Part shown: positions 7,456 through 13,293 of the stretch, piece by piece
Layout of the letters: each line of letters opens with the position of its first letter
Position numbering within the stretch: the stretch's first letter is position 1
NCBI GenBank assembly: GCA_021323705.1
Contig: JAJPKL010000023.1
Coordinates: forward strand, 1 to 64,000
Direction: 5' to 3'
Source of the DNA: Nitrososphaerota archaeon
GTDB taxonomy: Archaea > Thermoproteota > Nitrososphaeria > Nitrososphaerales > Nitrosopumilaceae
Length of the DNA stretch: 64,000 nucleotides
Notes under the pieces: generated by a model
Database searches by the model: none
Told to the model about the DNA's origin: nothing
What the model saw: the letters and a program-made list of their open reading frames with translations, nothing else
Position numbers and translations under genes: made by a program

Positions 7456-7881
7456 CTAATGCACGACGATAGAACTGACGTCAGCATGAATAATCGTGTT
7501 TATCAAAATCCAGCTGAATATGAACATCAGAAAATAGCTTCCATATCCAGTAGTGACAAGTTTTCGTTTGTCTGATGGCAAGAGAGGCACTCTAAAGGAT
7601 TTGGCAATCCCATATGATACGATAAACAATACAATCATTATTCCAAATCCCATTAACATCCTCTGGGTTACATCCATTGGGCTTCCAAGTATAGCAGAAA
7701 TGGTTCCGGCCAGTATTCCCAAGCCTACACGTAGCCAGAATACCTTGTTAAGACCACTTCTCATCTTTGATTCGTCAGTCTCAGTAACACTTGGCTCCTC
7801 TGGAGGAGGAGTATCCTTTGTAGGATTCTCGCTTGGTTCGGGTTTTTTGTTATCGTCTTTTTTCTTTGGATGTCTAACCAA
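7456..7881 (-). CDS. EMC6-like small membrane protein
   Basis: This 141-residue protein has a charged, proline-rich N-terminal tail (residues 1-40, many Lys, Pro, Glu) followed by three predicted membrane helices at about 46-66, 73-92 and 112-134. The order (helix with a GILAGTISAILG core, second hydrophobic helix, KRKL loop, glycine-containing third helix) resembles the EMC6/Rab5-interacting family, whose archaeal members are thought to be ancestors of an ER membrane insertase subunit. The match is from memory of the family pattern. It is divergent from rqcH, with about 156 bases between them. Confidence 0.6.
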   Translation of the reverse strand: MVRHPKKKDDNKKPEPSENPTKDTPPPEEPSVTETDESKMRSGLNKVFWLRVGLGILAGTISAILGSPMDVTQRMLMGFGIMIVLFIVSYGIAKSFRVPLLPSDKRKLVTTGYGSYFLMFIFSWILINTIIHADVSSIVVH

Positions 7882-8037: not shown

Positions 8038-9966
8038 ATGACTCTTGCAGGAATTGAGATTTGTTATCTGGTAAATGAGATAGCCAATAAAACACAGGAT
8101 TACTATGTCAGCAATATTTACGGTATAACACGCAATAGCTTGCTCTTCAAGCTGCATCATCCTGAAAAACCAGACATATTGCTCATGTTTTCCACATTTG
8201 GACTCTGGATTACTGGTATAAAGATAAGCCAGATGGAAGAAAACAGGCTGGTTAAGAGACTCAGAAATGATCTTTTGCGTGCAAAAATCATTGATGTTAA
8301 GCAGATTGGCAGTGAAAGAATAGTCCAGATCACTTTTAGTGGCTTTAATCAAGAATTTGTTCTAATTGGAGAATTTTTTGGCGATGGAAATATCATATTG
8401 TGTAACAAAGACTTGAAGATCTTGTCATTGCTTCACTCAATTGATGTAAGGCATAGAAAACTAGGGATAGGTCTAACATATGTTCCTCCCCCGTCGAGCG
8501 GCTTGAATATATTTCAAGTTACACAAAAAGATCTAGAAGAGATAAGAGCTACATCTACTGCTTCTGTACGATGGATTGGAAGAACTCTGGGTCTGCCCTC
8601 AAAATATGCCGAGGAGATAATGAAAGTTGCTGGCATAGATGGCCAAAGATTAGGTAATGCGTTATCTGATGATGAAGTTTCCTCAATATATCTTGCCATG
8701 AAAGAGGTGGTTGAGAAGGTTGCATGCGGCAAGCATGATGCATACATTGTTCGAGATGATAAAGGTGCGGATGTATATCCTATACCGCTAGGTGATTTTT
8801 CAAAAAGAAATGTTAGCAAGATATCCAGCTTCATGGAAGGTTTGGATTCTCTATTTTCTGAAAATCTTTTGGAACAAGGAAAAACAACGCGTACCGATAC
8901 TGTAAGTCAAAAGATAACAGAGCTTGAACACAAACTTGAGGAGCAAAACAAAGCAATTTCCCTAGTCAAGCAGAGGGCCGAATCCATATCCAAAGTTGCA
9001 AAAGCTCTAATGGATTCTGTATCTATTGGAGTCACCACGATTGACGATTCAAGAATTTTATCACTATTGCAAGGATGCAATTCCTCATTAGTAAGAGAAA
9101 GCGGTGTATTCATGATAGATGTAAATGGAGATAAGATAAAGATCAATCCAGAGGCGTCAATTCAAGCAATAGCTTCAATCTTATTTAATGAATCAAAGCG
9201 GCAACTAAAAGCAATCGATACAATAGAGATGGAAAAAATCAAAACAGAGAAAAATCTGGATGCGTTCAGAAAACAAGCTTCCATAGCACAAAACTCTGTT
9301 GTTTTTGCAATACAAAAAAAGAGGGAATGGTATGAAAGGTATAGATGGTTTTTTACTTCAGATGGCCTTTTGGCAATTGGCGGACGTGATGCATCCTCTA
9401 ATTCTTCAGTAATCAGAAAACACTTGGCTAAAAACGACAAAGTCTTTCATGCTGAGATAGTTGGATCACCATTTTTCATTCTAAAAGATAGTGAAAATGG
9501 CATAGCATCTAGCATAACAGAAGTTGCACAGGCTACAGTATGTTTTAGCCGGGCTTGGAGAGAGGGACTATACGGTCTAAATGCATATTGGGTAGAACCA
9601 GATCAGGTAAAGATGGCTGCACCAACAGGGCAATTTCTTGCAAAAGGTGCGTTTCCAATAGAAGGCACTAGAAATTTTATTCAAGTTTCCAACCTCCAGC
9701 TTGCTGTTGGGTTGTATCAGAAAGGAGAAAATTATGCAATAATGTCCGGCCCTCCCTCTGCAGTAAAAGTTCAATGCTTGTTTTACGTGATCATAGAACC
9801 GTCAGGAATTGATATGACAGAGCTTGCAAAAAAGATAAGATTGGAATTTCTAAAACTTGCAGAGAATCAAGATGTTGTCAAGGCATTTAATATTGATGAT
9901 TTTATACGGGCGCTTCCTGCAGGCGATAGCCACATAGTGGAGTCAGGTATTGGTCAAGGATATTGA
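8038..9966 (+). CDS. rqcH: NFACT/RqcH-type ribosome quality control protein
   Basis: This 642-residue protein belongs to the Rqc2/Tae2/RqcH/FbpA family. The N-terminal NFACT-N domain (about 1-165) opens with MTLAGIEICYLVNEI and later holds LLHSIDVRHRK and TYVPPP. Helix-hairpin-helix and coiled-coil segments follow at about 185-430. The NFACT-R domain starts near residue 428 with REWYERYRWF and IGGRDASSN. A C-terminal domain follows from about 560. Family members bind 60S/50S subunits carrying stalled peptidyl-tRNA and recruit tRNA-Ala for C-terminal tailing; that activity here is inferred. It overlaps the downstream nuclease gene by 4 bases, so the two are translationally coupled. Confidence 0.93.
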   Translation: MTLAGIEICYLVNEIANKTQDYYVSNIYGITRNSLLFKLHHPEKPDILLMFSTFGLWITGIKISQMEENRLVKRLRNDLLRAKIIDVKQIGSERIVQITFSGFNQEFVLIGEFFGDGNIILCNKDLKILSLLHSIDVRHRKLGIGLTYVPPPSSGLNIFQVTQKDLEEIRATSTASVRWIGRTLGLPSKYAEEIMKVAGIDGQRLGNALSDDEVSSIYLAMKEVVEKVACGKHDAYIVRDDKGADVYPIPLGDFSKRNVSKISSFMEGLDSLFSENLLEQGKTTRTDTVSQKITELEHKLEEQNKAISLVKQRAESISKVAKALMDSVSIGVTTIDDSRILSLLQGCNSSLVRESGVFMIDVNGDKIKINPEASIQAIASILFNESKRQLKAIDTIEMEKIKTEKNLDAFRKQASIAQNSVVFAIQKKREWYERYRWFFTSDGLLAIGGRDASSNSSVIRKHLAKNDKVFHAEIVGSPFFILKDSENGIASSITEVAQATVCFSRAWREGLYGLNAYWVEPDQVKMAAPTGQFLAKGAFPIEGTRNFIQVSNLQLAVGLYQKGENYAIMSGPPSAVKVQCLFYVIIEPSGIDMTELAKKIRLEFLKLAENQDVVKAFNIDDFIRALPAGDSHIVESGIGQGY

Positions 9967-10451
9967 GCACACATAAGCCTAGTTTTGTTGTAGATGCAAT
10001 GCTTGGAAATTTGGCAAAGAAGCTACGCCTTCTTGGTTATGATTCCAAGTATGACTCTTCAGTTGAGGATTCAGATTTAATTAAGATCGGCGAGAAACAG
10101 AGAAGAGTTATAGTCACAAAAGATGAAAATCTTTCCAAGAGTGCTGAAAAAACAGGCGTCATGTCAGTTCTAATAAGGGGAAATGACGAGATTGAGCAGA
10201 TTGTTCAGATTGCAAAAAAGATCGGTCTTTCTGATTTTATAATTGATACCAACTCTGCAAGATGTGTAAATTGCAACGGAAAACTTGGATCTATTGATAA
10301 GATAAGAATAATGAACAAGATTCCCTCTGGAATTTATGAAAGGCAAGAGAAATTTTGGATGTGCAATGATTGCAAGAAAATTTATTGGGAAGGAACCCAT
10401 TTTGAAAAACTTCAAGAGTTTGTACAAAAATTAAATCAGAGACTGAAATGA
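9963..10451 (+). CDS. Mut7-C RNase domain protein (PIN-like, zinc ribbon)
   Basis: This 162-residue protein starts at TTG 9963, inside the rqcH stop (TTGA overlap). The N-terminal part (about 8-90) is a PIN-like Mut7-C domain with acidic residues Asp11 (FVVDAMLG), Asp36/Asp38 and Asp54 (VTKDENL) in the expected order. The C-terminal part is a zinc ribbon with Cys101/Cys104 and Cys134/Cys137, followed by the family's YWEGTHF motif. The fold predicts a metal-dependent ribonuclease. Sitting between rqcH and an AMMECR1 gene, with 4-base overlaps on both sides, it is likely made in step with them, which hints at RNA cleavage linked to stalled translation (inference). Confidence 0.85.
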   Translation: MSTHKPSFVVDAMLGNLAKKLRLLGYDSKYDSSVEDSDLIKIGEKQRRVIVTKDENLSKSAEKTGVMSVLIRGNDEIEQIVQIAKKIGLSDFIIDTNSARCVNCNGKLGSIDKIRIMNKIPSGIYERQEKFWMCNDCKKIYWEGTHFEKLQEFVQKLNQRLK

Positions 10452-11050
10452 ATTCCATTTCTGATTATGACGGCCATACCCTTGTAAAAACTGCCAGAAC
10501 CGCTGTTACAGAATATCTTAAAACTGGAATAAAGATATCACTTCCGGATGAATTTAGAACGAAATTTTCTTTTAACTCAGGAGTATTTGTAACACTAAGC
10601 AAAGGCGAAGAGCTTAGAGGATGCATTGGATTTCCTACTCCAGACAGAAAGTTGTACCAATCTCTTCTAGATGCGGCAATAGCATCAGCTACAGAAGATC
10701 CCAGATTCCTACCCGTATCATATGACGAATTAAACAAGGTTTCCTTTGAAGTAACTGTTTTGACCCCACCAGAGGTGATAAAAGTGCAAAACCCTTCTGA
10801 ATATCCGTCTAGAATTAAAGTTGGAAGAGATGGCCTTATTGTGAAATGGGAGTTTGGTTCAGGACTTTTGCTTCCCCAAGTTCCTGTAGAATATGGATGG
10901 AATGAGGAAGAGTTTCTTGCCCATACCTGTCAGAAGGCAGGAGCGCCCAAAGACCACTGGAGACAGAAAAGTACCATGATCTTAAGATTTGAGGGAATCG
11001 TTTTCAAAGAAACAAAGCCAGAAGGATCTATAATTCGCGTCAGTTTATAG
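10448..11050 (+). CDS. AMMECR1 domain protein
   Basis: This 200-residue protein covers the whole AMMECR1 domain. The invariant LRGCIG sits at residues 56-61 and is followed by SATEDPRFLPV and SFEVTVLTPPE, all family hallmarks. The domain is found in all three kingdoms, often beside or fused to Memo, but its biochemical role is not settled. It starts at ATG 10448, overlapping the Mut7-C stop (ATGA), and is the third gene of the rqcH operon. It converges with the aconitase X small subunit, overlapping by 6 bases. Confidence 0.92.
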   Translation: MNSISDYDGHTLVKTARTAVTEYLKTGIKISLPDEFRTKFSFNSGVFVTLSKGEELRGCIGFPTPDRKLYQSLLDAAIASATEDPRFLPVSYDELNKVSFEVTVLTPPEVIKVQNPSEYPSRIKVGRDGLIVKWEFGSGLLLPQVPVEYGWNEEEFLAHTCQKAGAPKDHWRQKSTMILRFEGIVFKETKPEGSIIRVSL

Positions 11051-11428
11051 AATTTTTCCCTCTATTGCATCAATTAGAATTTCTTGACCATCTTTTAGTG
11101 ATTCATAGTCTTTTTTTTCTGCCACTACTAGCGGAATATTTGAAATTGCGCATCCTGATGCAGTAGTAATGTCTGCATGCAGGCATACCATTGCAAGCGG
11201 TGCAGATTTGTTATATTTTAGAGAGTAAATGGTATAAGCACCAACACTGCTTCCCACACCGTTTGGAAAAACAAGAATCTTGTCTCCTATGAATTTGCCA
11301 AAAAGATCGTGTTTTTCATCCCTTACCCTACCTGTCTTTTTATCAATGCCACCAAGAAAATTCACTGGTTTTTGTGCACAGAGTACAGTACCTTTAACTT
11401 TGCCACGCACAATCACTTTTACATTCAT
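11045..11428 (-). CDS. Aconitase X swivel subunit (mevalonate 5-phosphate dehydratase, small)
   Basis: This 127-residue protein is a DUF126/aconitase X swivel domain, with the GKVKGTVLC start, a central LFGKFIGDKILVFP motif and GSSVGAYTIY. In archaea with the modified mevalonate pathway the two aconitase X subunits form mevalonate 5-phosphate dehydratase, which makes trans-anhydromevalonate 5-phosphate for isoprenoid lipids. It overlaps the large subunit gene by 4 bases, supporting a 1:1 complex. The assignment follows the family and the pairing. Confidence 0.9.
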   Translation of the reverse strand: MNVKVIVRGKVKGTVLCAQKPVNFLGGIDKKTGRVRDEKHDLFGKFIGDKILVFPNGVGSSVGAYTIYSLKYNKSAPLAMVCLHADITTASGCAISNIPLVVAEKKDYESLKDGQEILIDAIEGKIL

Positions 11429-12633: not shown

Positions 12634-13293
12634 TTGGACAAGATAAAAAAGATTCTAGATGGGATGTTGAGAACAATGAATACGGTCAAGCCCCCCAGAA
12701 TGACTGCGTTACGTGAATTGCGCGAAGCTGAAAATGGAAGTCCTTTGAGCATTCTCATTGGCACCATACTTTCTGCACGAACAAGAGATGAAAACACATC
12801 TGCCGTAGTCAGGAAGCTGTTTACACGATACAAGACCGCACGTGCGTTGGCAAGAGCCAAAGTTTCAGATGTAGAAAAGATCATCAAATCTACGGGGTTT
12901 TATCATGTAAAGGCAAGGCGCATAATCAAAGTAGCTGCAATAATTGATTCAAAGTATTCTGGCAAGGTACCCCAAACGCTGGACAAGCTAATCGAACTGC
13001 CAGGAGTAGGAAGAAAGACTGCAAACTGTGTTCTAGTTTACGCGTTTGACAAACCTGCCATACCTGTCGATACTCACGTGCATAGAATTTCAAACAGGCT
13101 AGGGCTAGTTCAAACAAAGACTCCTGAGGATACAGAGGTGGAGCTTATGAAAAAAATACCAAGAGAACACTGGGTCCGGATAAACGATATTTTTGTTATG
13201 TATGGTCAAAATATATGCAAACCAATATCTCCAATGTGTAAAGTGTGTCAGATAAAGAAAGAGTGCGGCTACTACAAGACTATCTCTTCTTAG
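12634..13293 (+). CDS. nth: Endonuclease III (DNA glycosylase/AP lyase)
   Basis: This 219-residue HhH-GPD glycosylase starts at TTG 12634 and excises oxidised pyrimidines. The helix-hairpin-helix reads LPGVGRKTA with the catalytic lysine near residue 124, and the catalytic aspartate lies in PVDTHVHR near 145. Four C-terminal cysteines (195, 202, 205, 211; spacing C-x6-C-x2-C-x5-C) bind the [4Fe-4S] cluster of Nth. All key residues are present. It overlaps the convergent exported protein gene by 14 bases. Confidence 0.95.
   Translation: MDKIKKILDGMLRTMNTVKPPRMTALRELREAENGSPLSILIGTILSARTRDENTSAVVRKLFTRYKTARALARAKVSDVEKIIKSTGFYHVKARRIIKVAAIIDSKYSGKVPQTLDKLIELPGVGRKTANCVLVYAFDKPAIPVDTHVHRISNRLGLVQTKTPEDTEVELMKKIPREHWVRINDIFVMYGQNICKPISPMCKVCQIKKECGYYKTISS

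Follow-up and report, generated by a model that had tools for sequence, protein, structure and literature searches.

Three genes that follow one another without a gap raise the question of what a ribosome-rescue factor has to do with the two proteins encoded behind it. In the window, that is, the whole 64,000-nucleotide stretch of Nitrososphaerota archaeon DNA analyzed here, the open reading frames of rqcH, mut7-C and ammecr1 are all intact (Table 1). The earlier note had read them as three genes joined by two 4-base overlaps, and both the open reading frame coordinates and the junction sequence confirm this. Profile scores also bear out the identities it had assigned: 530 bits for RqcH against NCBIfam NF041120 RqcH_arch (equivalog-level, cut-off 400), 148 bits for Mut7-C against Pfam PF01927 (profile positions 2 to 145 of 146), and 180 bits for AMMECR1 against Pfam PF01871 (profile positions 1 to 168 of 168), with TIGR00296 also matched. 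Near the junction, the TTG at 9963 is the sole start codon 5' of the Mut7-C domain, and the genome carries a single copy each of Mut7-C and AMMECR1. Within the window's family, every intact triad that we examined overlaps at both junctions, with the exception of genome G066, where Mut7-C is truncated. Overlaps of exactly 4 bases occur only in the window's genus and in G027; the other triads of the family overlap by 8 to 26 bases. A translationally coupled operon is the best explanation of this arrangement. In the G066 locus (L287), an in-frame TAA interrupts Mut7-C, possibly as early gene decay.

Table 1. Features of the rqcH locus in the window
Feature	Coordinates	Strand	Description or basis
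EMC6-like/OPTI-like three-helix membrane protein, divergent	7456..7881	-	conserved rqcH neighbour; relatives' profile, Foldseek, EMC6 Pfam
rqcH	8038..9966	+	archaeal NEMF/Rqc2/RqcH family ribosome-rescue factor, 642 aa
rqcH stop / mut7-C start overlap TTGA	9963..9966	+	sequence
mut7-C	9963..10451	+	predicted PIN-like Rossmann core + Cys4 zinc ribbon, 162 aa, TTG start
mut7-C stop / ammecr1 start overlap ATGA	10448..10451	+	sequence
ammecr1	10448..11050	+	AMMECR1 family protein, 200 aa

The first protein also matches Pfam NFACT_N (PF05833) and NFACT-R (PF05670). Like the RqcH/Rqc2/NEMF family at large, it has both NFACT domains and the acidic-Arg motif. Its E93-R94 aligns with D98-R99 of yeast Rqc2, a motif required for tailing; the acid is thus Glu in the window protein and Asp in the yeast one. 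By aligning the archaeal RqcH relatives, we found an acidic residue (D/E) in 107 of 107 and the Arg in 106 of 107, a sequence conservation that fits a working RqcH. In contrast to eukaryotic Rqc2/NEMF, archaeal RqcH lacks the long C-terminal part, and the window gene shares an operon with Mut7-C and AMMECR1. The AMMECR1 protein, which belongs to a widespread and disease-linked family, retains the aligned motifs LRGCIG and LLLPQV, and its nearest solved structure is PH0010 (1vaj, E 1.7e-54).

Mut7-C had been described as a PIN-like RNase with a zinc ribbon. The zinc site stands: C101, C104, C134 and C137 (Cys4) are invariant across 30 relatives, as are the aspartates D11, D36 and D54. The PIN-like core fared less well. 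For the AlphaFold2 model (pLDDT 96), the best structural match is the C-terminal domain of MUT-7 (8q66, Z 9.1 over 143 residues; VIA-align), and response-regulator folds align to the core about as well as this best match. Foldseek ranked the PIN domains 1o4w and 3i8o first and third, and both hits are weak (E 0.01 and 0.04, with a TM of 0.28 for 1o4w). Because of these weak E-values and the comparable response-regulator alignments, a PIN-like fold of the model is plausible, not proven. The authors of the MUT-7 study likewise describe the PIN similarity as only distant, and report a contribution of the worm and human MUT7-C domains to RNA binding (PMC11347159). The fold and zinc site are common to the window protein, the MUT7-C domain of MUT-7/EXD3 (8q66) and the bacterial Ubl-Mut7-C proteins; however, the window protein is stand-alone and minimal, without an exonuclease or ubiquitin-like fusion, and differs further by its three invariant aspartates. 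In Nob1, which trims 18S/16S rRNA, and in other PIN/zinc-ribbon RNases, a PIN-like core is followed by a zinc ribbon. With its predicted PIN-like core, Mut7-C would resemble them in domain layout but belongs to a different family, and this analysis found no sequence match between Mut7-C and Nob1-type RNases.

Is the linkage more than a local accident? In 121 genomes from the phylum of the window (taken to be Thermoproteota from the named records of related loci; 66 genera, 31 families), we searched for each of the three protein families and tabulated the distances between HMM match edges, which count in some 0.7 kb from the tail of RqcH itself. Every one of the 121 has RqcH, 115 have AMMECR1, and 112 give a strong match to Mut7-C. 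A stretch of 6 kb holds all three genes in 65 genomes, covering 36 genera and 18 families; RqcH and Mut7-C lie within this distance in 78 genomes and 20 families, where simple arithmetic puts the chance for two random genes in a 1.8 Mb genome at about 0.7%. The earlier note had staked its case on a linkage conserved outside the strain, and the linkage indeed reaches across Thermoproteota and into Asgard archaea. It is real, old and wide, and the surveys at the level of the family, of the phylum and of Asgard archaea ruled out a chance overlap or strain-specific junction. We found no report of the RqcH-Mut7-C link in the searchable literature, though an earlier one may exist. Outside these groups, none of 70 Methanobacteriota genomes has Mut7-C, although the 30 of them checked for RqcH all carry it. 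In Halobacteriota and Thermoplasmatota, Mut7-C adjoins neither AMMECR1 nor RqcH, bar one Thermoplasmatota locus with RqcH some 5 kb off. Sulfolobus acidocaldarius and Haloferax volcanii, two species with genetic systems, carry Mut7-C as well as RqcH. No fusion proteins were seen among the loci examined.

Representative loci revealed a fuller order: RadA, a small TPR-like protein, the divergent EMC6-like gene, RqcH, CBS, PyrC (dihydroorotase), Mut7-C, AMMECR1 and an MJ1255/MurG-like glycosyltransferase, with at least one CBS protein and a zinc ribbon on some of these. The same order recurs in Asgard archaea, where RqcH is on the same stretch in 9 of 20 Mut7-C loci, either as RqcH-PyrC-Mut7-C-AMMECR1-glycosyltransferase with a divergent EMC6-like gene (L143, L145) or as RqcH-CBS-Mut7-C-AMMECR1 (L144, L153, L155). 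Since CBS and PyrC stand between RqcH and Mut7-C in the fuller cluster, the direct contact of the latter two is most simply a reduced form that, judging from the distribution, would have followed the loss of CBS and PyrC. The three-gene form is best read as a compact remnant of an ancient cluster common to Thermoproteota and Asgard archaea; a dedicated RqcH-Mut7-C-AMMECR1 system from the outset is ruled out by the intervening CBS and PyrC. In two loci, the CBS proteins between RqcH and Mut7-C end in a C-terminal zinc-ribbon-like stretch (L042:4937-5527, L036:4696-5280).

Such a cluster could also be passive, its common constitutive expression resembling that of old archaeal superoperons, with RqcH, Mut7-C and AMMECR1 serving unrelated processes. 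We regard this as a real though not the leading possibility, close behind the reading that we prefer. RadA, PyrC, CBS, a glycosyltransferase and sometimes a DNA ligase share the neighbourhood, and for PyrC, RadA and the glycosyltransferase no part in rescue is evident. Counted within 3.2 kb of RqcH, CBS (18 of the 30 families read) and TPR-like genes (16) are as common as Mut7-C (16); the EMC6-like gene is found there in 20 families, RadA and AMMECR1 in 13 each, and PyrC and the glycosyltransferase in 7 each. Moreover, Mut7-C or AMMECR1 has been lost or moved in several Thermoproteota in which RqcH stays, and each of the two is retained in some genomes without the other. Linkage in the ancestral cluster, with its PyrC, RadA, CBS and glycosyltransferase genes, thus need not mean a common pathway, and the housekeeping genes PyrC and RadA weaken any reading built on a pathway alone. 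However, passive inheritance fits less well with the families in which RqcH and Mut7-C stay together after most other cluster genes have dispersed (f8, f16, f19, f1). In f8, they are paired in 11 of 11 genomes, where EMC6L, CBS, PyrC, RadA and AMMECR1 are no longer near. An independent pairing of Mut7-C with Pelota in another phylum, described below, also argues against it.

The gene found most steadily next to RqcH encodes a divergent EMC6/OPTI-like insertase partner and had not been on the earlier note's gene list. A profile of 14 relatives retrieved OPTI (7tut_9) at E 9.5e-11 and EMC6 at 0.011, OPTI and EMC6 fill Foldseek ranks 1 to 4 for the model (E 0.02 to 0.5), and 9 of the 14 members match the EMC6 Pfam family, whereas the window protein alone reaches only 16 bits for EMC6_arch. 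OPTI is a partner of the TMCO1 insertase. The gene adjoins RqcH in 20 of 30 Thermoproteota families, in 9 of 9 Asgard loci with RqcH and in 5 of 10 Methanobacteriota; in the window's family it does so at every locus read through upstream, the one exception (L058) being a short contig that ends there. Four genomes (G084, G096, G060, G114) still hold it beside RqcH after Mut7-C and AMMECR1 were lost or placed elsewhere, so that the closest companion of RqcH is none of the genes first singled out with it. Archaeal EMC6-like proteins are known (PMC8675477), and the passages of this paper that we consulted do not mention a position beside RqcH.

These adjacencies, and their persistence in genomes of the window's family without the other two genes, would suit a functional unit of RqcH and the EMC6-like protein that rescues membrane-stalled ribosomes, with Mut7-C and AMMECR1 incidental. 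We hold such a unit to be unlikely as the whole account, although it is compatible with the preferred reading: the divergent orientation is weaker evidence of co-expression, and the gene was not found beside RqcH in families f8, f10, f19, f20, f23 and f25. The EMC6-like gene next to RqcH hints that rescue was tied to membrane insertion before eukaryotes arose.

The tightest pair in the cluster is Mut7-C with AMMECR1: in 69 of 121 Thermoproteota genomes, they share a strand and lie no more than 1.5 kb apart. They also occur without RqcH nearby, as CBS-Mut7-C-AMMECR1 in Hydrothermarchaeum, as Mut7-C-AMMECR1 in a Hadesarchaeon and in other loci, and they are jointly missing from G060, G096 and G114. 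One may therefore ask whether the two form a separate module, for example in RNA processing or the AmmeMemoRadiSam pathway, with RqcH as an upstream passenger. This seems improbable to us, for AMMECR1 is present without a strong Mut7-C match in G019, G090, G102 and the Methanocaldococcus control, and in family f8 the partner of Mut7-C is RqcH instead of AMMECR1. The pairing itself is already published: the table of Makarova et al. 2019 lists AMMECR1 (arCOG01336) as linked to a PIN + Zn-ribbon protein (arCOG04290), which we take to be the same Mut7-C family, and the entry includes no RqcH, EMC6-like or Pelota gene, whereas the window's pair extends upstream (PMC6393860). AMMECR1's firm genomic partner is Mut7-C. 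A new role for AMMECR1 in rescue had been suggested, and this part found little support: beyond gene position we found no tie of AMMECR1 to the ribosome, and the case for its share in the rescue mechanism is weak. In family f19 (L045 of G111, and G075 and G105), the cluster contains a divergent second AMMECR1 (76 to 82 bits), the canonical copy lying elsewhere. Some Mut7-C genes have nearby a radical-SAM gene similar to AmmeMemoSam_rS; we do not assign it as such, since it scores 68 against a cut-off of 220.

Pelota is the archaeal Dom34 rescue factor, and its neighbourhoods bear on the role of Mut7-C. In Halobacteriota, RqcH immediately precedes Pelota in 16 of 30 loci; over L201-L230 and L261-L270, this holds for about half of the loci read. 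In Thermoplasmatota, 6 of 40 loci (L185, L186, L198, L200, L326, L331) have Mut7-C immediately upstream of Pelota and on its strand. They represent three or more divergent lineages, with Mut7-C identities of 38 to 45%. The Thermoproteota and Asgard loci have no Pelota near the cluster. Since the pairs RqcH-Mut7-C, RqcH-Pelota and Mut7-C-Pelota were all seen, each side of this triangle occurs, in different phyla. The triangle suggests that Mut7-C belongs with the rescue factors, by an argument that is post hoc and in which Pelota is not the sole recurrent neighbour: in Thermoplasmatota, Mut7-C adjoins a riboflavin-pathway reductase as frequently as Pelota (7 of 40 loci), and in Halobacteriota 8 of 20 Mut7-C loci have endonuclease III nearby. 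The earlier note's proposal of a ribosome-rescue system with an RNase stands in part; the two Pelota pairings speak for it, while the broader housekeeping cluster and the persistence of RqcH without Mut7-C and AMMECR1 speak against it.

Taken together, the best-supported reading, to which we assign a probability of about 0.4, is a compacted operon remnant in which RqcH acts in rescue, Mut7-C is its RNase or RNA-binding partner, and AMMECR1 is a genomic partner of Mut7-C. Binding of split large subunits carrying peptidyl-tRNA is established for the NEMF/RqcH family, and the archaeal RqcH would bind them as its relatives do, an activity assumed by homology. Mut7-C may act alongside RqcH and Pelota as a PIN-like, probably metal-dependent RNase or as an RNA-binding protein, a role in rescue that we infer from the recurrent gene pairing and the conserved acidic residues. 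It would most likely cut or hold an RNA that the stalled ribosome leaves exposed, be it the mRNA or the tRNA part of peptidyl-tRNA; its nuclease activity, substrate and ribosome contact are all conjectural here. AMMECR1 is the old genomic partner of Mut7-C, and its presence may reflect co-expression alone. The no-go decay nucleases Cue2/SmrB are SMR-domain proteins, and they offer a proposed working analogy for Mut7-C as an RNase acting on stalled ribosomes, although the fold differs.

A more ambitious version of the preferred reading makes Mut7-C the RNase of archaeal rescue together with RqcH and Pelota, AMMECR1 its cofactor, and the EMC6-like partner its reach to the membrane. We consider this version quite unlikely as a whole; if it were true, Mut7-C would cut mRNA or peptidyl-tRNA at stalled ribosomes. 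Our search of the literature found no paper on a nuclease or release step for archaeal ribosome quality control, and the RqcH/Mut7-C/Pelota triangle provides a concrete candidate for the missing archaeal rescue RNase.

Two further genes of the window lie close to the operon. An aconitase X swivel gene (11045-11428, minus strand) is convergent with ammecr1 and overlaps its end by 6 bases, and an endonuclease III-like gene (12634-13293, plus strand) is located 1.6 kb 3' of AMMECR1.
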